Of a stretch of 61,446 bases of DNA, positions 5,525 to 60,421 are shown piece by piece. Under the pieces are notes generated by a model, which did not search any database, was not told where the DNA came from, and saw nothing but the letters and a program-made list of their open reading frames with translations. Within the stretch, counting starts at the first letter, position 1; each line of letters opens with the position of its first letter. The stretch comes from a virus. The DNA lies in IMG/VR virus record IMGVR_UViG_3300043399_000529, positions 1-61,446 of that record; one strand, written 5' to 3'. The position numbers and the translations under genes are program-made.

Positions 5525-5542
5525 CGGCAACTTAAATACAGC

Positions 5543-42617: not shown

Positions 42618-42619
42618 TT

Positions 42620-43531: not shown

Positions 43532-44262
43532 TATGAACCTTTTTTGCCAGGAACGCAATTAGGTACTTCGCGGCCATTCTTCATTTTCTTACCAACCATA
43601 TGATAACCTTTCCAGCAAGGATCATCTTTTGCCTTCATTTTTTTAGCTTCACTCATAATATTGACTACATGATAGTGATTAGGTCTGCCTTCAACTCTTT
43701 GAATTTTAACTTTATCACCGCTGTTAAATGAAGTAAACCCTTTACCGCGCTTAGACTTAATAGTTACACCATCATTATTGGCACTAACAATTTGTCCCAT
43801 GCGACCAGCAGCATTACTAAAAACAGTTGCGCCGTTCTTTAATAACTGAAATATTTCTTGGTTAATATTTGAACTGTTATCATCACCATACTTTGCAGTG
43901 TCTTTAAATTCTTCAACTGGTTTTTCTCCGCCGGTTGCTTGTCCACCAACTAAATCTTTATAATTGTCCATGCATAGATATTCATGTTCTTTCATCAATG
44001 CAATTGCACGCTCAGTTACATCATGTAAATCCATGTCTGTCTTTGCGTCTTCTTTGGCATATTCCATGATACGCAAGAATAACGGAATATCCATAGTAAC
44101 TTTATCTGTTGGATTTTCAGCTTCTTTGTTTACGCTTTCACCCCCAACCATCTTTTTACCTGGAGTACCAGCATCTTTAGCTTTCCAATAACCTGTAAAT
44201 TTAGGACCAGTAGACTTGTCCATTGCTTCGTCAAGTTGCTTCATCAAATCATTTAATAACAT
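43531..44262 (-). CDS. Late leader-bearing protein, 243 aa
   Basis: Starts MLLNDLMKQLDEAMDKS. Middle: MDIPLFLRIMEYAKEDAKTD (helical), then an SH3-like TVFSNAAGRMGQIVSAN...SGDKVKIQRVEG, and a short end with CWKGYHMVGKKMKNGREVPNC, a small Cys/Lys module I have seen in related phages. Contains IMSE before that module. Unknown role. Confidence 0.68.
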   Translation of the reverse strand: MLLNDLMKQLDEAMDKSTGPKFTGYWKAKDAGTPGKKMVGGESVNKEAENPTDKVTMDIPLFLRIMEYAKEDAKTDMDLHDVTERAIALMKEHEYLCMDNYKDLVGGQATGGEKPVEEFKDTAKYGDDNSSNINQEIFQLLKNGATVFSNAAGRMGQIVSANNDGVTIKSKRGKGFTSFNSGDKVKIQRVEGRPNHYHVVNIMSEAKKMKAKDDPCWKGYHMVGKKMKNGREVPNCVPGKKGS

Positions 44263-44693
44263 TATATTTCTTCCCCAGATCCTAAATTAATAAATCCAAC
44301 AGTATCTACTATCAATGCTTGTTTTCCAGCAATAACAATAATATCACCAACGTCCATACTTGTATGATCTACACCTAAACGGTCAATCATTTCACTTGCT
44401 TGATTTTGTGGGCTCCAATTTTCAGCCTGCATCATATTCCATATTTTTTCTGGATTTGTTTCTGCTAAAGTTCCAAGTAATACGTGTGTACGACTTAAAT
44501 TTTTTAAGTCGGGTAATTTACCAGCAGATTGTAAACTTTTAAAGCCAAGTTTCATATCGTGACTAAATTCTTCTTTCCAATACCAAATTTGAGTATTACC
44601 TGGGGAATAGTTATCTCCAGCGTCCTGTAAACTATTAAAACTAATAGCTTCCATTAGAATATCTAAATATTTCCTCATAAGCGCATTCGCCAT
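44262..44693 (-). CDS. Late leader-bearing protein, 143 aa
   Basis: GGAG 7 nt before ATG at 44693; starts MANALMRKYLDILMEAISFN. The end (VGDIIVIAGKQALIVDTVGF) is a beta module found, from memory, in other T4-like late proteins. AAATAAATA box at 44714-44722. Function unknown. Confidence 0.68.
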   Translation of the reverse strand: MANALMRKYLDILMEAISFNSLQDAGDNYSPGNTQIWYWKEEFSHDMKLGFKSLQSAGKLPDLKNLSRTHVLLGTLAETNPEKIWNMMQAENWSPQNQASEMIDRLGVDHTSMDVGDIIVIAGKQALIVDTVGFINLGSGEEI

Positions 44694-44713
44694 AACGAGT
44701 CTCCAATACAGTT

Positions 44714-44722
44714 TATTTATTT
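44714..44722 (-). promoter_or_regulatory. Late-promoter-like box AAATAAATA
   Basis: Minus-strand AAATAAATA 20 bp before the ATG at 44693, with the same placement as those at 48278 and 55713. Confidence 0.55.
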
Positions 44723-44740
44723 GATTTTAGCTTTAGTGTT

Positions 44741-45448
44741 ATGCTAAAAATAGCTATGAAACCTTCATATGTATTTGATGTAGATGGCACTTTAACCCCC
44801 AGCAGGAGTAAGATGGATCCTGCGTTTCAAACTTGGTTTTCTAACTGGCAAAAAACACATGATACTTACCTTGTAACAGGCAGTGATTATCCTAAAACTG
44901 TAGAACAAGTTGGGGAAGAAATAATCAACAATAGCAAAATGCTGTTTAATTGTTGCGGCAATGAAGTACGTATTGGTAAATTGATTACTCATCAATCAGA
45001 TTGGCAACCTCCACATGCTCTCATTGATGCTTTAGATGAAGAACTTACTAAAAGCGAGTTTCCTGTAAAAACAGGTAAACATATTGAAATTAGAACTGGA
45101 TTAGTTAACTTTAGTATTGTTGGACGTAATGCTAATAAAGAGCAGCGTGAACAGTATATAAAGTGGGATAACGAAACAGCAGAAAGATTAAAAATAGCTG
45201 TAAGGTTAGGAAGTAAGTTTGAAGATATTGATTTTATGCTTGGAGGCGATACAGGAATTGATATTTACCCAACGGGTAAGGATAAGCGTCAGGTACTAGA
45301 CTTTATTAAAAGCGAAAACCCTGTTATATTCTTTGGGGATAAAACATTACCGGGGGGAAATGATTACTCCCTGGCTGTTAGTGTTGATATTGCTCACCGT
45401 GTTGAAAATTGGGAGCATACTTGGGAAATTTTAAGACTTACTTCTTAA
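44741..45448 (+). CDS. Eukaryotic-type phosphomannomutase-like HAD enzyme
   Basis: 235 aa (ATG at 44741; 44756 also possible). FDVDGTLTPSR (nucleophile D13, D15), CCGNEVR, KHIEIRTGLVNFSIVGR, GGDTGIDIYPTGKDKR and FFGDKTLPGGND match the alpha-PMM (PMM2) family from end to end, near its full length of about 246. These enzymes interconvert mannose-6- and mannose-1-phosphate for GDP-mannose. A sugar supply for glycosylation is likely, fitting the glycosyltransferases here. Unusual in a phage. Confidence 0.82.
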   Translation: MLKIAMKPSYVFDVDGTLTPSRSKMDPAFQTWFSNWQKTHDTYLVTGSDYPKTVEQVGEEIINNSKMLFNCCGNEVRIGKLITHQSDWQPPHALIDALDEELTKSEFPVKTGKHIEIRTGLVNFSIVGRNANKEQREQYIKWDNETAERLKIAVRLGSKFEDIDFMLGGDTGIDIYPTGKDKRQVLDFIKSENPVIFFGDKTLPGGNDYSLAVSVDIAHRVENWEHTWEILRLTS

Positions 45449-45533
45449 AGTACTTGCTAATCCATTCTGGTTGTGGCAAAAAGTTCCAACCAACGATTAG
45501 TCCAACTGCACATCCAAGTATAAAACTTACCAT
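45438..45533 (-). CDS. Tiny membrane protein, 31 aa
   Basis: ATG at 45533 gives MVSFILGCAVGLIVGWNFLP and ends WISKYFKK-TAA. One transmembrane segment with a glycine pattern and a basic end. From memory similar tiny proteins are common in T4-like cyanophages. It overlaps the end of the convergent PMM gene by 11 nt and starts 2 bp before the next gene's stop. Confidence 0.65.
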   Translation of the reverse strand: MVSFILGCAVGLIVGWNFLPQPEWISKYFKK

Positions 45534-45535
45534 TT

Positions 45536-45919
45536 TTATCTCCTTACCAATGGTTTCTTAACAAGTGGCTTAGCAACAGTAGCTACTGAACCTGCTCCCA
45601 TACCACCTGCACTTACGCTTTCTGGCATACCAGCAGTTGGCATCATTGCAGTTGTATCTGGCATTGCAGGAGCACCTAGCTTATCGTATTCGAGATAATC
45701 TGCTGTTGACTTTATGTAGTCAGCAGCAAGTGTAATCTTGCTTTGCATCCAACCTTCAATGCCTTCTTCTTCGCTAACGTTCTTAAGTAACTTGTGTAGT
45801 CTAATAGCATCATTTGCTAAATGATATAGCTGAGCACGGGCCATTTGAACTTCATGGTCACGATCAATGTTCATTGCCTCATCGCTGAGATTTTCTTTAA
45901 TTTGCTTCTTCTTAGTCAT
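45536..45919 (-). CDS. Conserved late protein, 127 aa
   Basis: ATG at 45919 (MTKKKQIKENLSDEA). A helical core (EVQMARAQLYHLANDAIRLHKLL, then WMQSKITLAADYIKS) and a low-complexity tail rich in Ala/Met/Pro. From memory a well-conserved small protein in T4-like phages, function unknown. Late box at 45942-45949. Confidence 0.72.
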   Translation of the reverse strand: MTKKKQIKENLSDEAMNIDRDHEVQMARAQLYHLANDAIRLHKLLKNVSEEEGIEGWMQSKITLAADYIKSTADYLEYDKLGAPAMPDTTAMMPTAGMPESVSAGGMGAGSVATVAKPLVKKPLVRR

Positions 45920-45941
45920 AACTGACATCTCCAATATAGTG

Positions 45942-45949
45942 TATTTATT
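45942..45949 (-). promoter_or_regulatory. Late-promoter-like box AATAAATA
   Basis: Minus-strand AATAAATA, 22 bp before ATG 45919. Confidence 0.5.
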
Positions 45950-46259
45950 CAATTTTAAATTTAATTATTTGCTTATCTTCTGGGTGAATAGGAAAATTTA
46001 TCTCTTTTGTAGTTTCGTTATACGCAAGAACTATTTTTTCTATCCAAATTTTAGCATACGTAGCTGGTTTTACTTTTTGAATAGTTAATGTGTGTTCCCC
46101 AGAATCAAGCTCTGCAAACATTTCTTCTTCGATATAGTTTGTATTACAATCAGCCCAAAATTCTCTTTCGTTATAGAGATTATCATTTATCCAAAAACGA
46201 TAAACTGGACATTCGTATTCATAATACGCATAAACGTGAGCGTTAATTTGTACTATCAT
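45945..46259 (-). CDS. Small CBM-like beta protein, 104 aa
   Basis: MIVQINAHVYAYYEYECPVY; RFWINDNLYNEREFW, HTLTIQKVKP, KIWIEKIVL: the same order of strands as the start of the proteins at 34703 and 55725. Probably a virion surface domain. Confidence 0.6.
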   Translation of the reverse strand: MIVQINAHVYAYYEYECPVYRFWINDNLYNEREFWADCNTNYIEEEMFAELDSGEHTLTIQKVKPATYAKIWIEKIVLAYNETTKEINFPIHPEDKQIIKFKIE

Positions 46260-46501
46260 TATTCTATATCTTTAATTAAATCAACTTGTTTAACTAACTG
46301 ATGGCTACAATGTCTATCAGCTTTAATGGTTGATTTTTTAATCTTTTTAGCTTTTGCTTCTACTTGTCTAACTTCTTGTTTGGTGAGACTTTGTCCAATT
46401 ATTTTACCCAAATATTGAGCTGCTTTTCTCTTGATGGTTCCTGGACGAGATAGAGGTCTGAATGGAGCAGTTAATGCTTCCAAAGTATCTTCTATTTTCA
46501 T
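46259..46501 (-). CDS. Small basic leader-bearing protein, 80 aa
   Basis: MKIEDTLEALTAPFRPLSRP, then AAQYLGKIIGQSLTKQEVRQ and a lysine-rich segment. Start resembles the late leader family (TLE-A). Function unknown. Follows the 580-aa gene by 14 bp. Confidence 0.62.
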   Translation of the reverse strand: MKIEDTLEALTAPFRPLSRPGTIKRKAAQYLGKIIGQSLTKQEVRQVEAKAKKIKKSTIKADRHCSHQLVKQVDLIKDIE

Positions 46502-46515
46502 AATAGTCTCCCATA

Positions 46516-48258
46516 TTAATCCCTTTTACCACGACCAATACCTTTTGTTGCTGCTTTAAGTTTTGGTTTTCTTGCAGTAAGAGGAGAAGGTTTTCTTTTT
46601 GGTAATTCTTTATCAGTTGAAATCTCATCTGGAGTTTCATCTGGTATTTCATTCCCTGTTGGAACCGGAGCTGATGCAGATTGTAATCTAAAACCCATTC
46701 TTCCTTTTTGACCTGTAGCAAAATAGGTTTTATTAAAAAGAACTGGTTTTCCAGAAAATTCAGTAGGGAACTTTCCGTAGTAATCAAGTGTCATTGAATC
46801 ACCACTGACAGTAGTTTTTGTAACTAGCTGTAAGTAGTTGTTATTGTTCAATGCTTTTAACATTGCAGCAGAAAAATCTGGGTCATTATTTGCTGCGGTT
46901 AATACTTTATTAGCAACGGCTGCAAGCGCATGATAATATATTCTGTAATCATCTCTTGCAGCCGCATCTGGTCTAATTCCTTGAGATTTAATCAAATCTC
47001 TTAATTTTGCATCTTTAACATCTTTAATGCTTCTGCTCTTGCGTGAAATAGTTAAAACAGCTTGTGCAGTTGCTTCATCTATGATCTTGTACTCAATAGC
47101 TGCTTTGAGTATACCAGCGTCAGCTTTGTCCTTTGCTAGGTATCTCATTATGCGTACAGCTCGTGGATGTTCTTTTTCAAGTTCAGGTGTAACTTGAGCG
47201 TACACGCCAGCTAATGAACTAGCAGCGCCGCCGCCTGTATGCATTTTTGTGCTGATTTGTAATTGCTTACCATCAGCGGTTTTAATTAAACTATCCCAAA
47301 GTTCTTGTCGTGTATTAGCACTGAATCTAACTTGTCCACCTACAAAGCTACCAATGCCTACAGCATTCATAGCTTTTTTAATATCGCCGCCAGTAAACTT
47401 ACCGCTTAGTAATGCTAATGGTCCTAAGTATTCTGCACCATACTTACTAATAACAGTAGCATAATGTGTTCCGTTATTGATTGGTGCAATTTTACCAGAC
47501 GCAGCAAGATCAACAGCTTGGTCCATGACGTCTGCTAGCTCTTCATCTGGTGTACCATGTGTAACTGATCTAATTCCGTTTTTAACAGTTTTTGCTAATT
47601 CGTTCTTGTTCCTAAAAGTTTCATCCATAATGATGTCACTAGGTTTAATAGCAATAGATTCGCTGCTTGATCTCTCAGATTTATATTTGTAACCGTTAAG
47701 TGTTAACCACTTTCCGTGTATAGTAGTATCTGGAACTTTATCAATATATCTTACCCAATATTGACTTTTATTATGCGGATCTAATACATGTGCAATAATT
47801 GCAGCTCTTGATCTAGCAGTTGGGTTATTATCTAGTTTCTTAACAGCGGCTTTTGGAATAGCAGCAGCAATAGCTTTTTCTAACTCTTCTGGTGAGTTAA
47901 ACGCATTCTTATTCTTTGGGCTTATTACGCTAATTTCTTGTACAGTTAGTACGTCTTTTAAGTTTTGTGGATTAACGTATTGATCACCCTGTACACGAGC
48001 AGTAACGCCTCTAGACTCATCTACAATAGACTCGGTTAGTCCAAGGTTCATTAACTTGTTTGGGGTTGAATTCTTAGCAGCAGAGCTGTGTAGTAATGGG
48101 GGAGGAAACTTATTTCCAAACTTCTTTGCTTGACGCTCTACTTCGCCAGGCTTAATATCTTTTGTAACACTCATTGAAAAACGAGGGTCATTCGCTTCTT
48201 TTTTATTCTTAGCGATATACCCAACAGCAGCAGTTTCAAATAAATCTTTGATTTTCAT
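46516..48258 (-). CDS. Large late leader-bearing protein, 580 aa
   Basis: Leader MKIKDLFE then TAAVGYIAK. Next a segment (PRFSMSVTKDIKPGE) I remember from other T4-like late proteins. The middle (FVGGQVRFSANTRQELWDS, D322, then QLQISTKMHTGGGAA, K338) looks like a nuclease-type strand order, but the acid-x-K pair is atypical, so that idea is weak. The tail is Lys/Pro/Arg-rich. Own late box at 48278-48286. Probably packaged in the virion. Confidence 0.65.
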   Translation of the reverse strand: MKIKDLFETAAVGYIAKNKKEANDPRFSMSVTKDIKPGEVERQAKKFGNKFPPPLLHSSAAKNSTPNKLMNLGLTESIVDESRGVTARVQGDQYVNPQNLKDVLTVQEISVISPKNKNAFNSPEELEKAIAAAIPKAAVKKLDNNPTARSRAAIIAHVLDPHNKSQYWVRYIDKVPDTTIHGKWLTLNGYKYKSERSSSESIAIKPSDIIMDETFRNKNELAKTVKNGIRSVTHGTPDEELADVMDQAVDLAASGKIAPINNGTHYATVISKYGAEYLGPLALLSGKFTGGDIKKAMNAVGIGSFVGGQVRFSANTRQELWDSLIKTADGKQLQISTKMHTGGGAASSLAGVYAQVTPELEKEHPRAVRIMRYLAKDKADAGILKAAIEYKIIDEATAQAVLTISRKSRSIKDVKDAKLRDLIKSQGIRPDAAARDDYRIYYHALAAVANKVLTAANNDPDFSAAMLKALNNNNYLQLVTKTTVSGDSMTLDYYGKFPTEFSGKPVLFNKTYFATGQKGRMGFRLQSASAPVPTGNEIPDETPDEISTDKELPKRKPSPLTARKPKLKAATKGIGRGKRD

Positions 48259-48277
48259 TACATAAGTTCCTATGTAA

Positions 48278-48286
48278 TATTTATTT
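48278..48286 (-). promoter_or_regulatory. Late-promoter-like box AAATAAATA
   Basis: Minus-strand AAATAAATA 19 bp before ATG 48258, inside the end of the HAD nucleotidase gene. Confidence 0.5.
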
Positions 48287-48799
48287 CAAAGCAACGGCTA
48301 ACTGTTTTGCTAGTTCCTCTAAACTGTTTTCATCTGCTTGATATTTGATACCAATTCCACCAGCGTTATTCCAAGCTGTAATATTTTTGCGGAAATCATC
48401 AATTAGAATATTAGGAATACCGTTGGATACAGCATATTTGTACTTTTCATGTTCAAATATAATGCCATCTGGTTGAACAGTAATATGCTTATTTAACCAT
48501 TCGCGTTTGCCTTTAATGCTACCTGCACGATCAAAGTTTAATGGGCTAGATAATATCTTATATCCACCAGCCATTCCTTTTACCATACGCAATAAACGAT
48601 TAGCAGTTTTAAATGGGGGTAAATCTCTAAACAAATGATATGCATCTGTATTTTGGAAAAAAATTTCCCATTGCTGATCAGACATATCATTGTAATGTTC
48701 TACGTCGTGAATAGCCCCAACGTGATTAAACAAGTCTGCTAATACACCATCCATGTCAACATATACAGTAGGTTTGGTAGTTATTTCAAATATCTTCAT
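48281..48799 (-). CDS. HAD-family 5'(3')-deoxyribonucleotidase-like protein
   Basis: 172 aa. VYVDMDGVLADL (nucleophile D and acid D), ILSSPL, and ILIDDFRKNI (motif IV) match small deoxyribonucleotidases, which remove phosphate from dNMPs. The start MKIFEITT resembles the late leader family. Overlaps the methyltransferase gene by 14 nt. Confidence 0.78.
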   Translation of the reverse strand: MKIFEITTKPTVYVDMDGVLADLFNHVGAIHDVEHYNDMSDQQWEIFFQNTDAYHLFRDLPPFKTANRLLRMVKGMAGGYKILSSPLNFDRAGSIKGKREWLNKHITVQPDGIIFEHEKYKYAVSNGIPNILIDDFRKNITAWNNAGGIGIKYQADENSLEELAKQLAVALK

Positions 48800-49322
48800 T
48801 TAAATCTTTCTTACAAAGTTCAAGATCAATGTAGTATTCAGACATGGAAGAAGCGAGTATTCTAAATCTTTTTTCAAAGATCTCTTTCCATTCCTCAGCT
48901 TTTTTAAGACAAATATGTGCGTTCCACCCATTGTTTAAAACTCTAGTTGCTGGTACTGTTGAAATTGATATGAAAGCATATTTCTCAATAACTCTTTCTA
49001 AATCATCTAAAACATTATTGAGACAATCTGGTTCAACATGTTCAATTACATCAATACAAGCAACCATTTTGCACGGTTTAGGACTAGTGCTCCATTGCGG
49101 AATACCTGGTTCATATTTATGAACCACAATATTGGGATTTAATTTTTTTAATACCTTTTCTAAATTACCAACTCCTGATCCGTAATCTAATAATTCATTT
49201 AAATTATATTTAGATAATATATCAAAGATACGAGGGGCGTAGTAAACGGAAGCAACACCCCATTGACTAATTGAGTGTTCTTTTTCTAAAACAGATCTAT
49301 AATAATCTGTTACTAACGTCAT
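48786..49322 (-). CDS. Class I SAM-dependent methyltransferase
   Basis: 178 aa. LLDYGSGVGNLEKVL (motif I), MVACIDVIEHVEPD (motif II/post-I) and NGWNAHICLKKAEEWKEIF. The substrate is unknown; a small-molecule or sugar methyltransferase is as likely as a DNA one. Overlaps neighbours on both sides. Confidence 0.78.
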   Translation of the reverse strand: MTLVTDYYRSVLEKEHSISQWGVASVYYAPRIFDILSKYNLNELLDYGSGVGNLEKVLKKLNPNIVVHKYEPGIPQWSTSPKPCKMVACIDVIEHVEPDCLNNVLDDLERVIEKYAFISISTVPATRVLNNGWNAHICLKKAEEWKEIFEKRFRILASSMSEYYIDLELCKKDLNEDI

Positions 49323-49465
49323 TGCTCACTTTCCATAGCGCGATGCCAATATCGTTTAACAATTTCTTCTTTATCTTTATCTGTATAGCTATCTGGAATA
49401 TCTTTTCCTTTTAGCTTATTCCAAATAACTTTAGCTGTTTCATCGTTAAACTTTTTGTCTGACAT
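49319..49465 (-). CDS. Small protein, 48 aa
   Basis: ATG at 49465 (MSDKKFNDETAKVIW) shares a base with the stop of the giant gene (TAATG). Ends WHRAMESEQ-TGA. The longer open frame up to 49555 is a shadow of the giant gene's end. Helical, no motif. Confidence 0.62.
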   Translation of the reverse strand: MSDKKFNDETAKVIWNKLKGKDIPDSYTDKDKEEIVKRYWHRAMESEQ

Positions 49466-52400
49466 TAGTCTATCTCCCCGGTATACTCCTGCCCACCTAG
49501 TATACACGCTTTTTGCATTTCTGTTAACTCTTTTTTTGGCTCTTCTTTTTGCCAAACAAATGGTTTATCTGCTGCTTCGATGTATTCTTTTACTGTAGTT
49601 GGCTTTTTGATTCTTTCAAATGTATAGGCTACAATGCCTCTATCAACTTTCCTGTTTTTAAATTTAAAAGTAGGAATAATTTTTGGTAACATTTTTGTAG
49701 ATGCATCGTAGAGTTTAACTCGACTTAATTCATTTGCATAAGAAGCAAAATCAATTTTAGTAATATTTTCGTATTTGCTTAAGTATGTTTTAATTACAAG
49801 CATCACAGTAGTTAAGACTTTAAATGCATCTCCAGTGTTAGTTACTTTAATGGTTCCATCTTCATCATTTTCGGTAAAAGCAGAGAAAGAAATACTAGCC
49901 ATATTTGGTTTATTTTTATCGTTTACACTAATTAATACTATATATTCAACTCCAGCATCTGTAACAAAGTCAGCAGTATATTCTCTCATGTCTCCTTCTG
50001 CTGTAAAAGGATATGGTTTGTTAGCAAGTTCAGTTACAACTTCTTTTGATTCTGCGCTTGGTATTCTAACAGTGCCATCATCTTGATCAACGGCTGCAAC
50101 AACACGATTATTTTCCCTTCCCCATCGTAGCGCAAGTTGAGTTGCTTCCTGACGACTACGGGCAGAAACATATGTTAAAACATTATTATCGTGATCATAG
50201 ACTGTCCAACGACTCCATTGACCTTCGTTTCTACTAGCTACAGCTTTTATATCGTCTGGTGTTGCTACTCTTGCTCCTCGAGGACCACCATAAACTGGAT
50301 TATTATTTTCCCACTCAAACCCTTTGCTTAATGCCTCTTTAGAAGAAATTGCTTTTACAATAGTAAAAGGATTGCCGTTTCTATCAAGTATTGCCCAATC
50401 AATTGGTCCTCTTTTCTTTGCTAATCTAAGTTCTTGCTTTGCTTTTAGTTTCATTACAAGTTCTGCTTTTGATATACTACCACTTGCAAACATACTAAAC
50501 AATTTAACTACATTATCTTCATTTTCATTATTTTTTGCAGAATACAATAACTTATAAAGTTTCTTAGCATACTCTTGCTTTGCTTCATTTGGATCAGCAG
50601 CAAGAGCCATTACACGGACATAACGCAATAATGTATTCTTAATCTTTTCAATTGCTTCTAGATAGTTACCGCCTGCACTGCGGAACTCAATATAACCTTT
50701 CTTAATGTTAACGCTAACGTACTTGTCTCCTCTTGGAACAAGTGCATCATCAACCATCTTTAATGCTGCTTTATTAAGTCCACTACGTAATGTTTCAAAT
50801 ATAGTTGGCATGTTACGCATTACATATGGGCCAGTTTGTGTTTGCATCTTGTCAAGTGAGCTACGTGCATAGCCATTACCTAAACGACCAAACTGATCTA
50901 GTACGTACTTGTCACCAAGGAACAATATTAGCTTAATGTAATCAACGTTTTCCATTTGTGGAATGCTTACACCCATATGGAAACCAGTCGAGCTATCAGT
51001 ATATGCACCGTGATTATTCATCCAAGTTAGTACTACATCTAGCTTTTGTAGTGCTTGTTCTAATGGTAGTGGAGGACTTACTAATTCTAATCCGCCTTCC
51101 CCTGCACTTTCATCAGCATCGATACTGCTATCAGTTTCTAAATACCAAACACCACCTTCTCTGTTGCTCTTAAATGCATGATAGTCCGCGGCAAACTTAA
51201 CAGGCATACCTACAGCGTTTTTAATTTCATCTGCTACTTCACTCATTGCTTGTTCGTCAACTTCGCCGCTGCTAGTTTCTGTCCAGTGTGGCCAATCCCA
51301 CCCAAATCTCTCTGCCCATTCGCTCATCATTGACAAACTGTTATACTCTAAGAAACCTCTTAGATCATCCCACTCAGACATGTAATCATCCCTTAGTGAT
51401 TGTACAACGTCATCGTAAGTGCTATCTTGGTCTTTAATACTCTTTTCAATTTCTTCTTCGTCGTAAGTAGTATCTTCTTTATATTTTCTTCTTAATTCTT
51501 CTTGCCAATAATCAGATTCGAGTTCATTGTCAAAATCCATCATAATGTATTCGTTTAGTTCGTCTGATACTTCTTCAACAGCTCGTTCAATAGTTCTTCT
51601 TGCTTCGCTATCCCTAAAGAATGATATTAAGTCATCTTGCATAGCACCCATTGTTGAGCTTGTTACACGCTCGTCCATGTCATAATCTGGTTCGCTATCC
51701 CCGCCATTCTCATCTGCCATGTTAGGAACAATCATTTCAAACTCGAACCCAACAGTAGTTGATTTTGCAATGTCACTTGCGCTAAACTTTTGTAGCGCAC
51801 CTGGACTCATATCAATTTCAGTTAGACGTTGTTCGTGATTTTCTAAACTGAACTCTTTGTCCTTCATGTCGTTAAGCATATCGTAGAGTTTGGCAATAAG
51901 TCCATTGCTACGTAATGCTTTCCAAGCTAGATTTTCTGCACCAAATTCACCAGTGCTATGTAATCCAACTTGACGATACTTCTTAAGTGTATGACGTAAC
52001 TTTACAGCAAGATTATAATCCTGTGCTTTTAGTGCTTTTAAGATCAAAGCTTTTAGTACATCATACTTTTCACGAACGTTTGATTCATCAACTTCAACGG
52101 TAGTTTGTTCTGGACGCTTAACCCAATCATTGTTCATAATGCTGTAAATGCCATTGCTTACATGATCTTCGTTTGCATTTTGTACGTATAACTCTACATC
52201 AAACCCTTTGATCTTGTAGTCATGCTGTTCATTATACTGGAACTTCTTTGCATCAAATAGTTCACGATAAATTGCGTCATCATCTACTTTTGGAAGATCA
52301 ACAATTAAGTGTAAGTCAATGTCACTGTTTGGTGTGTAGTTGTATGCGGCATTAGATCCACTAATTGTAATGTCCTTCAAGTTAGGAAGTTCAATTCCTA

Positions 52401-55400
52401 TGAAGTTTTTAAAGTCCTCTGCAATATCCAACAACTTTTGTCTTACAACAGGAGACATCCTACCTGCGCTATTAAACAATTGTGGATTTAGTTCATCGTT
52501 AATAGTTGGCATAAAGTCATCTGCAGGTGTACCGCCTTCAACAAAGTATCGTGTTTGATATTTGCCGTAATTCTTTTCGTCGTGAGCAGTTGCGATGACA
52601 TACTTGTAACTGTCATCCATCATTAGTATTTTCTTAATACCGTAACCAAGACCATCACGTTTACGTTTAATTACAAAGTCAACGTTTTCTAAGTTTGAAA
52701 TTTTATCACCAAATTGCTTTTTTGCATTTGATAAAATATCAAGCATATCTTTTTGTGACAATGTACGTTCTGCTAATCTTTCAAGCAAGTGTCCTGAAAT
52801 ATATACTGGTCCATCAGCAAAATCAAAGTTGATGTAATACTTGTCTTTTTTAGGATTTGCTTTTTCAGTAATCTTAGTTGGATTTTCCTTAGCAAGTATT
52901 GCCTCATATTCTGCATTTGCTTGTCTAATAGCAGCAAGTGCTTCTTGTGCTCTTTTTTCACTATCTGCTAACCCTGGCACCGCTTTAGTCATCTTGTCCC
53001 AAGGAGACTTAGCTTCACCTAATTTAACTCCCATACCCTTTGCAGTAAGCATCATGAGTTTCTTAATCCAATCTTCGTCTAACTTACCACCAAAACCTTT
53101 CATCCAAGTATCTAGTTTTTGTTGTAATGATAGATTGGGATCTTTTAGTGTGTTACGCAATGCTGTAAAACTAGCATCAATGCCACCTAAAGCAGCACCG
53201 CGTGGAATAGCAATAACATCATAATCAACTTGATCTTGTGTTCCACCAAACTTTGCAAGTGCAGCAGGATCCTTCATACGCTTTTCTAAAGTATCCATCC
53301 ACTTCTTAAAACCTTCGTAACGGTCAGTGCCAACCATCAACACAATTTTCTTGTAAGTACTATCAGAAGGTAATACTAATTCTTTTTCAATTTTCTTAAC
53401 TGGACTTGGTACAGTTACACCATCTGGACTTACAATAAGTTGGAAGATGTTTGCGTACTCGGGATACATTTTCTTCCAAGTAGCCAACTTTACTTCTGGT
53501 GGAATTGGATCATCTGGTCCAGTCTTGCTGCTAATGTAAACGTATGGGTCACCGCCAAGTTTCTTAGCAGCGGCAATAACAGTATCAATTACCTTTTGAT
53601 GACCAATGTGACCAACAAAACTACCAGCAGTAACAACGGCAGCTTTGGTTCTATTGCTCCCAGTTGTTGGTGCTTTTTTAATCTTTGCAGCCATTGCACC
53701 TTTCATTTCAGTGCTAGTAACTTTTGCAAGCTGACCATTTGGCATAGCGATAACTAAACCTTCAATAGTGCTGCCAAGCTTGTCTTTACCTTTAATGTTA
53801 GGACTGTTAATGATAGCATCGCTAATTGCTTTTCGAGCTGCTGTTAATATTTCTTTTGCTTTTGCTTTTGCAGGATCATTTTTCTTTTTGCTTGACAGTG
53901 CTGTACGTAATGTATCATCCATCCTAGCAATTGGTTCTACAATGCTTTTAACATCAATATCACTGTGCTGTAATTCAGTTCCAATTATTTTAATATTTGG
54001 TGTACTTTTAGTAATAAGTTTTTCTATGATTGTATCTGGTAATCTTTCACCAGTAGAATATGTACTTGCAATAATAGGAACAAGTGTCATTTGCTTGCCA
54101 AGTTTTTTAGAATCATACGGTATGTTTACAAACTTAAGTCCAGTATTAGTCTTTTCAGCCATTGGGTTGTACATCATTTCTGCTTGTACAATTGTATCCT
54201 TAGGTAATTCTTTTATAAAATCACTGTTTACAATTAAGTTAAGTGCTTGATCGTATTTTTCAGCACGAGCAATTTGTTCTTCACTGCCGTTATTATCTCT
54301 AGCATATTTTTCAAACATGCCAATATTATCAGCATAAATTGGATTTGTAACACGACTTGTCATAAAGAATGGTTTACCGCTTTGATCTTTACCAAAACGT
54401 ATACCAGCACCATCTACTTTAAGTGTGATTGGAATGTTATCGAGCGTGCCTCCATTCTTAGCAATTGCATCAACAAATGCCAGGAAGTCTAAATCCTTCA
54501 TTTCAACAGTTGAACCAGGATTATAAATGTGCTTAATACCTTGACGCTTATAATCTGGGGCATCTGCTTCTGTAATTGATTCTGCTTTATACTTAGAATA
54601 ATAATCAGCTAAGGTTTTTGCTAATTCATTTTTGTTAATTGAAACTTTTAGTGTATCTATAAGTTTATTGATAGCGATTTCTTTTTCACGTTTGTCAGTT
54701 GCTGGGTCACCTTTGTATAGTTGCTGAGCAGCAGGGCCAAACAACAAAGCCATAAATGCTTGTGTAATTTTGTTTTTATCTTCTGGTGTAAAATATTTGT
54801 TAATTAATGCTAATACGCCAACAAAACTGCCTAAATACTTTTCTTCACCTTTAGTTGGTTTACGACCAATTAAAAGTGTAAACATGCCTGAAATATCTGT
54901 TACATATTCGCTTTCACTTGCTGGAACTTCTTTATAAATTCCAAGTCCATCATCGGCTACTGCTGGTTTCTTTGTTTTGGGATCAATTACTGGTTCAAAC
55001 TTTTGTCGAACACCGCCAGTTACAGCAAAGGCCAAATCACTTGCTGTTACTTTCTTTAGCTTAGTCTTCATTTGAATGTAACGTTCTTTAGCATCTTTGT
55101 GTGTTAAAGAACGTAGTAAGTACTTGTGGAACACGCCTTTAATGCCTGCGCTTAAGTCTTCCCAAGCACTGCTATGACTAAACTTGCTCCACTCAGTTGG
55201 ACTACCTTTATCATAGTCTACAAGTTCCATATCAATCTGTACGTTTACAGCAGGATCTTTAAATTGCCACAAGCTAATAAATGTATCCTGTCCTGGGTTT
55301 GGTTTAAAACCAATTAACTTTGCTGGACCAAATTGTTTACCTGTTGCCCTAGTTAAAAAGTCCTTAGCTTTATCGGCTAGGTTCTTATCAACCATAGTGT

Positions 55401-55686
55401 CAATATCACCAACACTTGACTTTACTTTAGTAAACTGATCATCTGGAATTTTTACATTGAAAAAGTGGAAGGCGCTACCACTTAAAAACTCTTTGTTTTT
55501 AATTAATTCTGGGCTCCAAAGAGGAACACCGTATGCTTTATTAAATGCACTGTTAATGATTTGCAGTGCTTTATCTATCTCAGCAACTACTGCGCTACGG
55601 GAAATCTTGTTTAAGTCTAGACGTTGAGCGGCAATGCCGTCTATCTCAACATTGCCGCCTTCGTTAAGTATTGTTTTATTGATCAT
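49465..55686 (-). CDS. 2073-aa multidomain late protein (ligase, NTases, amidoligase)
   Basis: Domains in order: N-terminal region (1-370) unrecognised; ATP-dependent ligase-like domain (about 395-660) with LKVDG (K423), AEMMY (E503), EGLVIAMPNGQLAKV (E642, K655); nucleotidylyltransferase (about 680-840) with VGHIGHQKV and VGTDR; unrecognised 941-1060; polymerase-beta-like NTase (1108-1130) with ISGSNAAYNYTPNSDIDLH; amidoligase-type domain (about 1309-1700) with GFEFEMIVP and GGLELVSPPL and STGFHMGV; two W-x-x-x-D modules (1763-1855); C-terminal domain. Sites of form (I/L)xE lie at or near most domain borders (373, 891, 941, 1290, 2056; also VTE at 1886). Own late box. One uninterrupted frame. 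Confidence 0.75.
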   Translation of the reverse strand: MINKTILNEGGNVEIDGIAAQRLDLNKISRSAVVAEIDKALQIINSAFNKAYGVPLWSPELIKNKEFLSGSAFHFFNVKIPDDQFTKVKSSVGDIDTMVDKNLADKAKDFLTRATGKQFGPAKLIGFKPNPGQDTFISLWQFKDPAVNVQIDMELVDYDKGSPTEWSKFSHSSAWEDLSAGIKGVFHKYLLRSLTHKDAKERYIQMKTKLKKVTASDLAFAVTGGVRQKFEPVIDPKTKKPAVADDGLGIYKEVPASESEYVTDISGMFTLLIGRKPTKGEEKYLGSFVGVLALINKYFTPEDKNKITQAFMALLFGPAAQQLYKGDPATDKREKEIAINKLIDTLKVSINKNELAKTLADYYSKYKAESITEADAPDYKRQGIKHIYNPGSTVEMKDLDFLAFVDAIAKNGGTLDNIPITLKVDGAGIRFGKDQSGKPFFMTSRVTNPIYADNIGMFEKYARDNNGSEEQIARAEKYDQALNLIVNSDFIKELPKDTIVQAEMMYNPMAEKTNTGLKFVNIPYDSKKLGKQMTLVPIIASTYSTGERLPDTIIEKLITKSTPNIKIIGTELQHSDIDVKSIVEPIARMDDTLRTALSSKKKNDPAKAKAKEILTAARKAISDAIINSPNIKGKDKLGSTIEGLVIAMPNGQLAKVTSTEMKGAMAAKIKKAPTTGSNRTKAAVVTAGSFVGHIGHQKVIDTVIAAAKKLGGDPYVYISSKTGPDDPIPPEVKLATWKKMYPEYANIFQLIVSPDGVTVPSPVKKIEKELVLPSDSTYKKIVLMVGTDRYEGFKKWMDTLEKRMKDPAALAKFGGTQDQVDYDVIAIPRGAALGGIDASFTALRNTLKDPNLSLQQKLDTWMKGFGGKLDEDWIKKLMMLTAKGMGVKLGEAKSPWDKMTKAVPGLADSEKRAQEALAAIRQANAEYEAILAKENPTKITEKANPKKDKYYINFDFADGPVYISGHLLERLAERTLSQKDMLDILSNAKKQFGDKISNLENVDFVIKRKRDGLGYGIKKILMMDDSYKYVIATAHDEKNYGKYQTRYFVEGGTPADDFMPTINDELNPQLFNSAGRMSPVVRQKLLDIAEDFKNFIGIELPNLKDITISGSNAAYNYTPNSDIDLHLIVDLPKVDDDAIYRELFDAKKFQYNEQHDYKIKGFDVELYVQNANEDHVSNGIYSIMNNDWVKRPEQTTVEVDESNVREKYDVLKALILKALKAQDYNLAVKLRHTLKKYRQVGLHSTGEFGAENLAWKALRSNGLIAKLYDMLNDMKDKEFSLENHEQRLTEIDMSPGALQKFSASDIAKSTTVGFEFEMIVPNMADENGGDSEPDYDMDERVTSSTMGAMQDDLISFFRDSEARRTIERAVEEVSDELNEYIMMDFDNELESDYWQEELRRKYKEDTTYDEEEIEKSIKDQDSTYDDVVQSLRDDYMSEWDDLRGFLEYNSLSMMSEWAERFGWDWPHWTETSSGEVDEQAMSEVADEIKNAVGMPVKFAADYHAFKSNREGGVWYLETDSSIDADESAGEGGLELVSPPLPLEQALQKLDVVLTWMNNHGAYTDSSTGFHMGVSIPQMENVDYIKLILFLGDKYVLDQFGRLGNGYARSSLDKMQTQTGPYVMRNMPTIFETLRSGLNKAALKMVDDALVPRGDKYVSVNIKKGYIEFRSAGGNYLEAIEKIKNTLLRYVRVMALAADPNEAKQEYAKKLYKLLYSAKNNENEDNVVKLFSMFASGSISKAELVMKLKAKQELRLAKKRGPIDWAILDRNGNPFTIVKAISSKEALSKGFEWENNNPVYGGPRGARVATPDDIKAVASRNEGQWSRWTVYDHDNNVLTYVSARSRQEATQLALRWGRENNRVVAAVDQDDGTVRIPSAESKEVVTELANKPYPFTAEGDMREYTADFVTDAGVEYIVLISVNDKNKPNMASISFSAFTENDEDGTIKVTNTGDAFKVLTTVMLVIKTYLSKYENITKIDFASYANELSRVKLYDASTKMLPKIIPTFKFKNRKVDRGIVAYTFERIKKPTTVKEYIEAADKPFVWQKEEPKKELTEMQKACILGGQEYTGEID

Positions 55687-55712
55687 TTAATAGCCCATTA
55701 ATGTATATAGAC

Positions 55713-55721
55713 TATTTATTT
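55713..55721 (-). promoter_or_regulatory. Late-promoter-like box AAATAAATA
   Basis: Minus-strand AAATAAATA 26 bp before the ATG of the giant gene. Confidence 0.55.
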
Positions 55722-55724
55722 GTG

Positions 55725-56168
55725 TTAAATGTTTTCAAGTAACCAAATGTAAATTGGTGTGCTGAACTTAATTTCCCAGCGACCGTTATATCCTAAATTA
55801 ATACAGTTTTTAACTAACTCTGGAGCACTATCTCCGTAAATGTCTTTACGGGGATAATAATTTGAATGTGTATGCTTTAAATATCCAATATTAATCTCAT
55901 CAAATGAGATTTCGTCAATGTTGAGAAGCTGATCTTTAACAATTTTATCATTTTCAACAACAGTTTGATATTTGTCCTTATCGTAAAGTTCAATAGCTAA
56001 TGTATGGGAATCTTCTGTTAGTTCTCCACTCCATTTAATTTCTTTTTGATCAGCAATTTCACCGTCAAAAATTAATTGTGCATCTACATAAACTTTTGCT
56101 TTCGGTGCATTTTTCCAAAAGTTGCTGGATAAAGTTACTACAATATCAACTGTTTCAAGATTTGACAT
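55725..56168 (-). CDS. Virion-type CBM-like beta protein
   Basis: 147 aa. AKVYVDAQLIFDGEI, HTLAIELYDKD, IDEISFDEINIG and NLGYNGRWEIKFSTPIYIWL: a CBM-like strand order also seen at 34703 and 45945. Such proteins in T4-like phages probably sit on the virion. Overlaps the glycosyltransferase gene by 14 nt. Confidence 0.66.
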   Translation of the reverse strand: MSNLETVDIVVTLSSNFWKNAPKAKVYVDAQLIFDGEIADQKEIKWSGELTEDSHTLAIELYDKDKYQTVVENDKIVKDQLLNIDEISFDEINIGYLKHTHSNYYPRKDIYGDSAPELVKNCINLGYNGRWEIKFSTPIYIWLLENI

Positions 56169-56988
56169 CTGAGTTGCTTTCTAATTCAATTTTTTCGTAA
56201 GCTTTAAGTTGCTCACTATTGTCTTTTAGATTAGCTGTCCACTCATCTGCAAGTTTCTTAATAACATTAACGTCACCTTGGAATGTGTATGTACCACAAT
56301 GATCTAATTTAATCTCAGTATCGACCCAAACTGGGATATTAAGTTTTTCACGCACACGTTTACAGAACGTCCAATCCTCAGATAGATAATGACCGTTTTC
56401 ATCAATCATTGTATCAAACAATGCATACATATGTGGTTCATACTGAGGTCCAAGATTGAGACTGTCTTTATATTTTAACTCAGGCATTGCCTCAATGAGC
56501 TTTTCAATTACATCACGCTTAATAAGCATAAAACCTGTACCTGATGTAGAAACTTCAAGTAACGATCCTACGCGCCTTCCCCCTGGCAATGAGTTAATGA
56601 CATAACGAATTGGTAACCCTTTCATAGGGTAAAGTCCACACACAACACCGGCTTCATATAATACCATACGCAGAACTGATTCAGCATCCCATTTAATATC
56701 TGCATCAATCCACATAAGGTGTGTTGCTTTTGAATTAGCTAAGAATTTAGAAACAAGATTGTTTCGTCCACGAGGAATGAGGCTTTCATTAACCATAGTA
56801 TCTACACTAAAGTTAATGCCATATTTCATAGCAAGCATAGCAAATCTCATATAGCTACCAAAGCATGGTTCCATAATGTTTCCACCATAGCAGGGTGTAC
56901 AAAAATGAATATGAACTTTTTGTAGTTTTTCGAGGGCTTGCTTTTGTGCTTCCTCGGCTGTTAAATTATTAGTTGCTTCTTCTGCCAT
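56155..56988 (-). CDS. GT-A type glycosyltransferase-like protein
   Basis: 277 aa. ESLIPRGRNNLVSKFL, then HLMWIDADIKWDAESVLRM with the D-x-D metal site, and SEDWTFCKRV near the end, as in phage GT-A enzymes (family 2-like). The substrate could be DNA, a virion protein or a host glycan. Begins a small downstream operon with the beta protein. Confidence 0.75.
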   Translation of the reverse strand: MAEEATNNLTAEEAQKQALEKLQKVHIHFCTPCYGGNIMEPCFGSYMRFAMLAMKYGINFSVDTMVNESLIPRGRNNLVSKFLANSKATHLMWIDADIKWDAESVLRMVLYEAGVVCGLYPMKGLPIRYVINSLPGGRRVGSLLEVSTSGTGFMLIKRDVIEKLIEAMPELKYKDSLNLGPQYEPHMYALFDTMIDENGHYLSEDWTFCKRVREKLNIPVWVDTEIKLDHCGTYTFQGDVNVIKKLADEWTANLKDNSEQLKAYEKIELESNSDVKS

Positions 56989-56998
56989 ATTTTACCTG

Positions 56999-57157
56999 TT
57001 ATTCAATCTCAATTAGTGTATCGTTGCCAATCATTTCTTGAATAACTGCTACTAGCGTAGCAAGCATTTCATCGTGCATGATTGGATAATTTTCTTCGCT
57101 ATCACGTACTAACTTACTAAGTGTTATAGTTATCTTCTGTTCGTTTATCTTCGCCAT
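56999..57157 (-). CDS. Small acidic protein, 52 aa
   Basis: ATG at 57157 with a strong GGAGG seven to eleven bases upstream gives MAKINEQKITITLSK... ending LIEIE-TAA. It overlaps the 3' end of the gene at 57117 by 41 nt in another frame. Helical, function unknown. Confidence 0.6.
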   Translation of the reverse strand: MAKINEQKITITLSKLVRDSEENYPIMHDEMLATLVAVIQEMIGNDTLIEIE

Positions 57158-57515
57158 GGATTTCTCCCTCCACGGTATTTAGCGTAGTTAACTGCTCTGT
57201 TTTTACTTTAGGCTTACGTCCACGCTTTTTACCTGCAACCTTCTTGCCGCCATCTGCTTTAATATCAAAGACGCTGGCAAGTCTAATTGGATCCATGCCA
57301 TCAACTTCCTTAACATCATTAATATGCATGGTAAACTTCTTACCTAGCCTATCTCTACACTTAAAAATTACACCATCGAAATCTTCCATCATTAGCTCTA
57401 GTGGAAGAGTTTGTAGTGTTTGGCCAAGACCCGACGTTTCTGTATAACCATACAGCAGCGTACCAGGTTTCATAATGCCACGATTAATTAGAGCTTCAGC
57501 TAGTTGTCTTTTCAT
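57117..57515 (-). CDS. Hypothetical protein with AT-hook-like tail, TAG-TAA stop
   Basis: 132 aa, MKRQLAEALINRGIMKPG. An SH3-like stretch (TLLYGYTETSG, VIFKCRDRLGKKFTMH) and a basic KKRGRKPK, the AT-hook type core, near the end. The stop is TAG followed at once by TAA. Overlaps the upstream gene by 20 nt. Confidence 0.66.
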   Translation of the reverse strand: MKRQLAEALINRGIMKPGTLLYGYTETSGLGQTLQTLPLELMMEDFDGVIFKCRDRLGKKFTMHINDVKEVDGMDPIRLASVFDIKADGGKKVAGKKRGRKPKVKTEQLTTLNTVEGEIHGEDKRTEDNYNT

Positions 57516-58191
57516 TTAGTTCCTCTAAGGTTGTAAACTTTTCAATTCTTTTTATGAATAGAGGGTTGATTAATGCGATAATGCACAGCACGTCCTCACT
57601 ATTGGTGTAAAAGTATGGTGTACCCCAATAGTTGCCTCTCTTAATTCGTTCAGTAGTTCTATCATCAAATGTAGAAGTATTTGGATCATTATTAATTTGA
57701 TCCACAATAGCACCTACTGCGTCTAGACCTATCTTTTGAATTGTTCTGTAATTGGTTGCCCAGTGTATACGATAACGCCACTTTTTGTGGGGTAAACGCT
57801 TAACAACAGAAGTAACTGCTCTAGGTAATTCTGGTTTAATAGCCGATTCCTCTAAAACAGTTTCTTCCATTTTGCCAACCTCAATATTGTTCCACTCTTT
57901 TAAGGAAGCAACTGAGATCTTCTCTAATACTGTAACAATGTCGTGACAGTAAATGGCTAAGGTATCGTACTCGGCACGTGTTCTAAACAAAGATGAGTCG
58001 AGGTTGTTATACAATGGCATTGTAACTTTTCGACTCATATTACGAAGGCGCGCCCAGTCCCTCACACGTTGATTATTTTCTAATCTAATAATGTGAGGGA
58101 ATTCACTGTAATACTTTTTGTAGTTAGGCTTGAGGGAGATTTTAACTCCCTCAGAGCGCAACTGATCCATTAACGCGGATAATTCCATCAT
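57496..58191 (-). CDS. Conserved phage protein, 231 aa
   Basis: [16 protein letters not shown]; contains HKKWRYRIHWATNYRTIQKIG and PYFYTNSEDVLCIIALINP, a strand/helix order I recall from T4-like phages without a function. Overlaps clpA by 41 nt, so it is translated in the same transcript. Confidence 0.7.
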   Translation of the reverse strand: MMELSALMDQLRSEGVKISLKPNYKKYYSEFPHIIRLENNQRVRDWARLRNMSRKVTMPLYNNLDSSLFRTRAEYDTLAIYCHDIVTVLEKISVASLKEWNNIEVGKMEETVLEESAIKPELPRAVTSVVKRLPHKKWRYRIHWATNYRTIQKIGLDAVGAIVDQINNDPNTSTFDDRTTERIKRGNYWGTPYFYTNSEDVLCIIALINPLFIKRIEKFTTLEELNEKTTS

Positions 58192-60421
58192 CTCCTACCA
58201 CTTGATTATCGTCATGTTGTACAAATTCAATTTTGCCATCCACGAGCTTCGCTACAAGTGTAGCACCTGCAGGGATTTTGTCAAATAGTATTTTGCGGGA
58301 AAGTGGAACCTTTACCAATTCATTAATCTTACGACTAATAGGACGGGCACCCATCTTTGCATCGTAGCCCTTCTCAATAATGAGATCGACAACTGGCTCT
58401 TCCAAACGTAGCTTAATGCCACGATCACCAAGTAGTTCGTTAATCTCAACAATGAACTTAGCTACAATCTTGCGTAGGCTCATTTGATCTAGCTTACCAA
58501 ACTTAACAATCCCATCAAGACGGTTGCGGAATTCTGGGCGGAAGTACTGTTGCACCGCTTTATCATCCTCTCCCTTTTTCTCAGGAGATCCAAAACCGAT
58601 GCTGTTTCTTTCGCCTTCCTGAGCACCCAGATTGCTTGTCATAATAACAAGACAATTACGTGCATCAGCCTTCTTACCGTTTGAGCCAGTTACCATACCT
58701 TCGTCCATGAGTGCAAGTAATGCAGTCATAACGTCGGGGTGTGCCTTTTCAACTTCATCAAATAGGATGATTGCATTTGGATTCTTAGTAATATCACTAA
58801 TAAGCAGGCCGCCGCCTAGGTTACCATCATCGTAGCCAACATATCCTGGAGGTGCACCAATTAGACGTGCAACTGAGTGCTTTTCTTGGTATTCGCCCAT
58901 GTCATAGCGTAGGAGCTTCATGCCCATATTCTCACCAAGCAGCTTGGCAAGTTCAGTCTTACCAGTACCAGTTGGACCTAGGAAGAGGAACACGCCCATT
59001 GGCTTGTTAATGCTCTTAAGTCCTGCCTTAGCAACGTATACCTTTTCAAGTACATTGTCAACAGCATTGTCCTGGCCAAACAGTTTAGACTTAATTGCGC
59101 TTTCAAGATCAACAGCAACTTCATCGTTCTTAGCATCAATTTGGCTAATTGGAATCTTAGTTGCAGTGCTAATCTCGTCAACAATCATGCCGCGTGTAAC
59201 AGCAAAGTTCTTGTGATCTTTTACTTTTTGCCTTGCACAAGCAGAGTCAATTAGATCAAGTGCCTTATCTGGAAGCTTCTTATCGCTTTGATAACGAACG
59301 GAAAGATCAACTGCTGCCTCAACTGCATCATCAGTAATAGTTGCAGTGTGGAACTTCTCAAAGTAAGGACGTAGCCCCTTTAGAATTTCCTTAGCATGTG
59401 AAGGGGTTGGTTCATCAACAGTAAGCCTGTGGAAACGACGCATTAGCGCACGATCCTTTTCAAAGCTTGTGCTGTATTCTTCCCATGTAGTTGAAGCAAT
59501 TACCTTGATCTTGCCCTTAGCAAGTGCAGGCTTAATCATGTTAGAGAAGTCTACATCACTGTGACCGCCTGAGCCAGCACCGCGCATCTGATGTGCTTCG
59601 TCTACGAAGAGGATTGCCTTACCCTTTTTAGATAGTGCATTAATTACTTCACGTAGCTTTTCTTCAAACTCGCCACGGAACTTTGAACCAGCAAGTAATG
59701 TACCAATGTCGAGATTGTATACACGCCAGTCCTTAAGGAACTCTGGCACGTTGCCGTTTACAATGTTAAGTGCAAGCCCTTCGGCAATTGCAGTCTTACC
59801 AACACCCGGGTCACCAACCATTAGTACGTTATTCTTATTACGGCGCGCAAGAATCTGAGCAATTTCAATTAACTCTACCTCACGACCAATAACTGGATCA
59901 ATTTCACCTTCTTCTGCCTTTTCATTAAGGTCAGTACAGTACTCTTCAAGTACTGCATCCGCGGCAGACATGTCAGATCCACTGCCTTTGGCATTGCGGT
60001 TATTGTGTGCTGTTACGATTTTAGCTTTATCCATACCATACTTGGTAAAATAATATGCTGCCCAACTATCTGTTTCATTGCTGAGACTTAGATAAATGTC
60101 TACTGGCTGCATTACTTGGCGATTGCTAAAAAGAACCTGTGTAAATGCACGATTGAATACACGCTCTAGCGCATGTGTTTTATTAGGCTGCTCGACGCTA
60201 TCACCTGATAAGTATGTTTGTTCTGACAAATGACGGGTAATTTCTTCAACCAGTTCAGGCTGATCAACTCCAGCATCTATGAGAATGTTTTTAAATCCAT
60301 CATTGACAACAAGTGCCAACGCTAAGTGTTCGGTTGTAACCAATTTATGATTAGCAGCTTTGGCGATTTCAATTGCATGTGCAACGATACGGTCAATTTC
60401 TGGATTATTTTGAAGTGCCAA
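58151..60421 (-). CDS. clpA: ClpA-type AAA+ unfoldase
   Basis: 756 aa (E. coli ClpA 758). N-terminal Clp repeat ([14 protein letters not shown]), first AAA module ([23 protein letters not shown]), second ([26 protein letters not shown]) and [15 protein letters not shown] before that has the I-G-(L/F) loop that lets ClpA dock on ClpP. I see no ClpP in the window, so it may use the host protease. Strong promoter 60452-60479. Confidence 0.92.

Follow-up and report, generated by a model that had tools for sequence, protein, structure and literature searches.

The IMG/VR contig IMGVR_UViG_3300043399_000529 (61,446 nucleotides, analysed whole and called the window below) carries, at positions 49465-55686 of its minus strand, a gene for a protein of 2073 residues. 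This protein is probably a cargo polyprotein that begins with a capsid-targeting sequence (CTS), is matured by the prohead protease, and delivers an early RNA-repair and counter-defence kit. An earlier reading, made from the letters alone (the sequence-only reading), had proposed a capsid-packaged polyprotein cut by a protease of the T4 gp21 type, and every sequence test that was run speaks for it: the leader, the junction between the first two domains (D1 and D2), a control linker, the reuse of modules, the disordered C-terminus of the D1 model, and the gp21 and capsid-protein sites of near-complete relatives. Packaging and cutting are strongly inferred from these sequences, and injection with the DNA would follow.

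The gene and its relatives

The open reading frame (ORF) had been recognized at these coordinates by the sequence-only reading, to which the minus strand is added as a correction. The frame is uninterrupted on that strand, whereas the opposite, plus strand is riddled with stops across 49465-55686. A second contig (L002) encodes an identical protein, present in full (100%), and the frame is also intact in the relative L003, whose product has 2135 residues and is 83% identical over its length. L004 and L005 encode a 1606-residue protein that matches residues 3-895 only. The long frame, the full-length relatives and the conserved motifs exclude an artefact. Profile searches of the whole protein returned Amidoligase_2 (1.9e-10), weak FAD_syn, NTP_transf_2 and DUF6934 matches, and PHROG families over residues 18-349, 632-801 and 1063-1281; NCBIfam gave no match and PADLOC a single weak one. 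Several unrelated enzymatic domains thus share one polypeptide, as they do in the polyvalent proteins of phages.

The N-terminal leader

Residues 1-9 (MINKTILNE; 55660-55686, minus strand) resemble a CTS, with a predicted cut after E9. In T4, gp21 cleaves after L/I-x-E, ten CTS residues are enough for packaging, and the internal proteins (IPs) IPII and IPIII have a common leader (PMC9026906). The D1 alignment, used as a query, retrieved 80 loci, among them 65 non-redundant homologs with a recognizable start. The motif [IL]xE directly precedes a conserved GGN in 58 of these 65, and [ILVFM]xE does so in 61, as expected of a T4-type leader; along the bodies of these proteins the background is 0.75% and 1.5% per position, respectively. 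The leaders are 6-26 residues long, 60 of 63 are distinct, and their median pairwise identity is 8% when the last three residues are excluded. Because the leader sequences are hypervariable, shared ancestry does not explain the motif. Some leaders resemble those of the T4 IPs (MKSFKEYLTE/GGN and MKTFKEYLVE/GGN, the slash marking the predicted cut), and Campylobacter phages CP220 and CP21 have MKLSEL..ILE/GGN.

Five homologs start directly with M-GGN: those of Vibrio phages Va1 and pv27, Xanthomonas phage X1, Stenotrophomonas phage Moby, and L112. In the Vibrio, Xanthomonas and Stenotrophomonas phages the leaderless D1 lies among early-type genes, and the enzymes can therefore work without packaging. 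This would fit a cytoplasmic multi-enzyme protein that is never packaged, with the variable N-terminus reflecting drift and the LxE motifs belonging to acidic, flexible linkers. We regard that explanation as very improbable. It does not account for leaders that have nothing in common but their final [IL]xE, for a junction site that shuffled linkers do not reproduce (below), or for two adjacent, unrelated window genes that share the leader MLIKELTE, as T4 internal proteins share theirs.

The nucleotidyltransferase and ligase-adenylyltransferase modules

The first module, D1 (residues 10-373; 54568-55659, minus strand), is a nucleotidyltransferase of the Pol-beta superfamily with a predicted cut after ITE373. 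Its AlphaFold (AF2) model, built from 40 relatives, has a predicted local distance difference test (pLDDT) score of 94. The last three residues, ITE, are disordered, so that a check of site placement in the structure agrees with cutting there. Foldseek matched the model to Pol beta and Pol mu with probability 1.00; SpoT ranked first by E-value and superposed poorly. The catalytic pattern GS...GDID...D (G61 S62, D85 x D87 and D143, including the acidic triad) is invariant in the 40 sequences, as in Pol-beta nucleotidyltransferases. A sequence-profile search of D1 against the PDB gave no match, and Pfam gave none to RlaP or any other family, which does not place D1 within RlaP.

D2 (residues 379-668; 53683-54552, minus strand) and D3 (678-890; 53017-53655, minus strand) were modelled together from 32 relatives with a pLDDT of 90. 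D2 has the fold of an ATP-dependent RNA ligase. Foldseek returned T4 Rnl1, archaeal Rnl, T4 Rnl2 and tRNA ligase, the Rnl1 and Rnl2 matches having probabilities of 0.99-1.00 and low TM-scores. The motifs KVDG and EGLVI are present, and K45, D47, G48, E264, G265 and K277 are invariant in the 32 sequences, as is typical of Rnl proteins. A sequence-profile search of D2 against the PDB gave weak, chance-level matches only. Assignment of D2 as a DNA ligase was rejected, RNA ligases heading the Foldseek ranking. D3 is an HxGH domain with a fold like that of nicotinamide mononucleotide (NMN) and nicotinic acid mononucleotide (NaMN) adenylyltransferases: Foldseek matched NadD and NadM folds and NaMN adenylyltransferases, PDB chains were matched through a RibF/FAD synthase profile, and phrog_3041 was also found. 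Because overall TM-scores are low, D1 and D2-D3 are assigned at the level of fold only; the catalytic residues are nonetheless invariant. The sole relative in the genome collection (L186) contains the ligase part, D2, only; it lies on the metagenome-assembled genome contig CAKZJX010000007.1, from an assembly labelled Anaerolineae, and may belong to a prophage, to contaminating phage DNA or to the host.

The C-terminal modules

A spacer of 50 residues (892-941; 52864-53013, minus strand) lies between KLGE891 and ITE941. It is followed by a PBECR3-like RNase module (942-1050; 52537-52863, minus strand), which is missing from the L003 alignment; its match to PF18812 is weak (E=0.0026; 18.1 bits, below the curated cut-off of 30) and covers nearly the full length of the profile. 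The next module is a second Pol-beta-type nucleotidyltransferase (1051-1290; 51817-52536, minus strand), with a strong match to phrog_36119 (5.9e-40) over residues 1063-1281 and a weak one to NTP_transf_2 (0.0012); it occurs as a free-standing protein in Maribacter phage Molly and Synechococcus phage DSL-LC02. An amidoligase module with its C-terminal region (1291-1886; 50029-51816, minus strand; Amidoligase_2, 2.6e-11) is delimited by predicted cuts after LTE1290 and VTE1886, and a DUF6934-like module (1887-2073; 49468-50028, minus strand; PF22028, 6e-6) ends the protein. Behind the amidoligase, residues 1714-1886 contain tandem W-x-[LIVF]-[YF]-D-x-x-[TN]-G units, which are also found in the C-terminal half of L174.

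The sequence-only reading had listed four domains in this protein. Its ligase-like core stands, the type being corrected to RNA-ligase-like by Foldseek, and its HxGH nucleotidylyltransferase is found at residues 678-890, with the refinement that it probably stays fused to the ligase. The minimal nucleotidyltransferase (1063-1281) and the amidoligase-like domain are likewise present. Absent from that list were the nucleotidyltransferase at residues 10-373, the weak PBECR3-like RNase and the DUF6934 module.

Predicted cut sites between modules

In all 39 polyproteins with a recognizable D2 start, [ILV]xE occurs within 14 residues before that start, and the residue after the predicted cut (P1') is Ala in 31 of them. 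Shuffling of the D1-D2 linkers gave an expectation of 13.5±2.9, with a maximum of 23 in 2000 shuffles. The frequency of [ILV]xE[AGS] per 1000 residues is 26.2 in the D1-D2 linker, 0.44 in the D1 core, 1.2 in the D2 core and 0 in the D2-D3 linker, which has no site in any of 32 sequences and serves as a natural negative control. Because these D2-D3 linkers have no site, the ligase and the adenylyltransferase are predicted to stay joined. Cut motifs at module borders and none inside the linker of a single product are what is proposed for a prohead-protease polyprotein. Free-standing D1 proteins stop at the D1-D2 cut position or a few residues short of it. After D3 a site is found in 21 of 31 sequences (7.1±2.2 in shuffles), and L003 has LxE at the equivalents of both 891 and 941.

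Modules are also reused elsewhere with their delimiters. Nineteen other contexts, near gene starts or deep in polyproteins, hold the amidoligase module, and [LI]xE directly precedes it in all 19. A small, basic peptide beginning NFADGK was found 25 times, always after E and 21 times directly after [ILVF]xE. It closes polyproteins of 1400-2082 residues elsewhere; the window encodes it on its own, as a 63-residue protein with the leader MLIKELTE. In L003 it follows the endolysin in one chain, joined to it through LNE/, whereas the window has two genes, each led by MLIKELTE. L003 also carries the DUF6934-like module in duplicate along with its delimiter ([VF]VTE/LANKPY, twice). No NFADGK module was found in isolate phages, and searches of IMG/VR with the PBECR3 and DUF6934 modules alone returned the twin contig only, so that these modules offer no independent test of their borders.

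Two further polyproteins were noted among the relatives. One is an 897-residue protein of G005 (5068-7761; L018) in which unrelated segments are joined by repeated GVAE/[AG], a predicted cargo polyprotein. The other is the 2082-residue ORF of L180, which combines second-nucleotidyltransferase, HExxH, amidoligase, DUF6934-like, ParB-like and NFADGK modules, several of them preceded by VAE or QGVAE.

The sites LNE9-G, ITE373 and LTE1290, named by the sequence-only reading, are supported far beyond chance by the relatives. Support for LGE891 is moderate (the 21 of 31 sequences after D3 and the LxE of L003), and ITE941 has its positional equivalent in L003. LTE2056 was rejected as a cut and is probably no site, since it is LTD in L003 and not conserved; Asp at P1 blocks CTS processing in T4 (PMC9026906). 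VTE1886 and FVE1050 are further candidates that had not been named. The caution that such sites arise by chance in a long protein was well placed: [IL]xE occurs 15 times in the 2073 residues and several of these lie within folded domains, so that its occurrence by itself proves nothing, and what counts is the place that it holds in the relatives.

In the polyvalent proteins of phages and conjugative elements, Pol-beta nucleotidyltransferases occur together with PBECR and further enzymes, and some such proteins enter the head without being cut (PMC5512222). That the present protein is simply one of these, losing its leader but otherwise packaged and injected intact as a single multidomain effector with its inner LxE motifs uncut, is nevertheless unlikely. 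Such a reading leaves unexplained why [ILV]xE/A is retained at D1-D2 in 39 of 39 sequences against an empty D2-D3 linker, and why the modules are reused as separate CTS-led genes. Pfam, moreover, found no zincin peptidase in the window protein.

Prohead protease and capsid proteins of relatives

G005, a relative that carries the 1606-residue protein, has gp21 and gp23, the latter with a candidate capsid site RYLGE/SATAG. A gp21-type (S77) protease is present in 9 of 20 further relatives, mostly on larger contigs, and LxE precedes the conserved core of the capsid protein. The DNA polymerase groups the window with phages of 315-353 kb, and three of four of these carry gp21 and gp23, with the capsid sequence KYLKE/NASAG. 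Small ORFs in the window (472-705 and 7133-7303, minus strand) and in G002 (87448-87654) show weak, short but recurrent similarity to the central part of T4 gp23.

Neighbouring genes

CTS-like starts are enriched at 42001-57515 (10/16 versus 16/69, p=0.004). All the genes of this cluster described here are on the minus strand. The 580-residue neighbour at 46516-48258 begins MKIKDLFE/TAA, and its module xDPRF.MS.T is reused within other polyproteins. The gene at 44262-44678 begins MRKYLDILME/AIS, a start conserved in G002, and those at 43531-44262 and 42001-42429 begin MLLNDLMKQLDE/AMD and, from an internal ATG, MRDWINLFE/DIN. Between them lie a GH19 endolysin-like protein (42620-43531; PF00182, 2.4e-13) with the leader MLIKELTE/SKQ from an internal ATG and, at 42426-42617, the basic 63-residue protein MLIKELTE/NFADGK..., whose leader is identical to its neighbour's. 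The shared leader suggests that the endolysin-like protein is carried in the virion, whether instead of acting in late lysis or in addition to it.

Beside this cluster, a ClpA-like unfoldase (58151-60421, minus strand; TIGR02639, 802 bits, below the equivalog cut-off) adjoins a DnaJ-like chaperone (60496-61362, minus strand). Elsewhere in the window a tRNA with anticodon CUA (10092-10168, minus strand; tRNA-Pyl by ARAGORN, 57 bits to the Rfam tRNA model) is possibly an amber suppressor; TAG ends 7 of the 85 window ORFs. A QueE-like radical SAM protein (15393-16247, minus strand) gives a hint of 7-deazaguanine chemistry and is also found near D1 in X1 and Moby.

Points against a cut and packaged polyprotein

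Several observations weigh against this interpretation. Neither the window nor the contigs closest to it, all of them fragments, yielded an S77 protease, and some large contigs also have no detectable S77. The cut positions of the capsid proteins are candidates near the N-terminus that were read from sequence. Three homologs (L096, L102 and L104) have LLC, and no E, before GGN, and the homologs are related, so their counts are not independent. The enrichment of CTS-like starts is modest, and the cluster was picked after the starts had been seen. Global TM-scores of the fold matches are low, only 21 of 31 sequences carry a site after D3 in the stretch tested, and the borders of the second nucleotidyltransferase and PBECR3 modules are based on few sequences.

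Proposed maturation and role

The 9-residue leader would act as a T4-like CTS and draw the precursor into the prohead core. A gp21-type (S77) protease, encoded outside the contig, would then remove the leader and separate the modules by cutting after [I/L/V]xE. The predicted products are at least a 40 kDa nucleotidyltransferase (residues 10-373; isoelectric point (pI) 9.0), a 57 kDa ligase-adenylyltransferase (374-891; pI 9.3), the 5.5 kDa spacer, a 13 kDa PBECR3-like RNase, a second nucleotidyltransferase of 28 kDa, a 68 kDa amidoligase protein and a 21 kDa DUF6934 protein. These would stay inside the capsid until they are injected along with the DNA. In the host the nucleotidyltransferase may restore nucleotides and the ligase may rejoin tRNAs that the host's anticodon nucleases have cleaved; the remaining modules would be further counter-defence or takeover enzymes.

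RNA repair as the early task is put forward as a hypothesis. It is favoured because X1 and Moby, where these domains are separate genes, keep the order D1-x-D2-D3, and because phages are known to pair Pol-beta nucleotidyltransferases (RlaP) with RNA ligases for RNA repair (PMC7824862). It is possible, if somewhat doubtful, that the protein is packaged and cut for NAD or nucleotide metabolism or for protein modification instead. The NadD/NadM folds of D3 allow an NMN adenylyltransferase directed against NAD-depleting defence, NAD+ synthesis enzymes are known in phages (PMC9503650), and amidoligases ligate peptides, so that the amidoligase and the nucleotidyltransferases might modify proteins. 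D2, however, is nearest to RNA ligases, and D1, D2 and D3 keep together even as separate genes. Such roles are compatible with RNA repair and the two are not mutually exclusive.

Comparison with known systems

The arrangement resembles that of T4 IPI, IPII, IPIII and Alt in its short leader ending in [I/L]xE (compare MKSFKEYLTE/G), in the gp21 of relatives, and in a leader common to unrelated neighbours. The T4 internal head proteins yield one mature protein per gene, whereas up to about seven products per precursor, separated by inner LxE cuts, are predicted here. Polyvalent proteins (Iyer et al. 2017, PMC5512222) are likewise giant multi-enzyme proteins, with Pol-beta nucleotidyltransferases and PBECR RNases, that are proposed to be packaged and injected, and their release has been likened explicitly to that of RNA-virus polyproteins. 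That release is attributed to embedded zincin-like peptidases, whereas the present protein has a different, ligase-adenylyltransferase core, a CTS and LxE delimiters for a head-maturation protease that would act in trans. Pfam matched no embedded metallopeptidase or MuF-type fusion in the 2073 residues, a feature that is common but not universal in polyvalent proteins; an HExxH module is confined to related polyproteins, L180 among them.

The inner-body and ejection proteins of phiKZ and SPN3US are also packaged in the head, and gp175/gp245, distantly related to gp21, process them after xxE (PMC9026906, PMC5694885). Theirs is the removal of a propeptide at an S/AxE motif, in contrast to the release of several enzymes from a single precursor. 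Phage P1 DarB, DdrB and DarA are large head-packaged defence proteins, DarB having an N-terminal packaging signal (PMC9024508); their sequences are unrelated to those found here, and P1 has no described series of prohead-protease delimiters. RlaP and its ATP-grasp RNA ligases (PMC7824862) share the tie between a Pol-beta nucleotidyltransferase and an RNA ligase, but D1 has no Pfam match and delivery in the virion is proposed here. The open-licence literature that was searched yielded no account of a phage polyprotein whose several enzymes are set apart by the prohead protease. The leader and protease of T4 internal proteins and the idea of multi-enzyme polyvalent proteins are known; their combination appears to be new.

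Implications

We lean towards a general modular delivery system in large environmental T4-like phages, in which any protein placed between the [ILV]xE delimiters of a CTS-led polyprotein would be packaged, freed by the capsid protease and injected. As part of that view, the exchangeable cargo (RNA ligase kits, RNases, amidoligases, HD hydrolases, and ParB-like or DNA-binding peptides) would be the phage counterpart of RNA-virus polyproteins. If this is correct, the head-maturation protease of T4-like phages doubles as a polyprotein protease, and [ILV]xE at leaders and module borders would allow the injected proteome of uncultured phages to be read from metagenomes. RNA repair would be present in the virion, ready ahead of phage gene expression, which bears on tRNA-cutting and similar defences. 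The polyprotein would also be a natural scaffold for the delivery of multiple protein cargoes.

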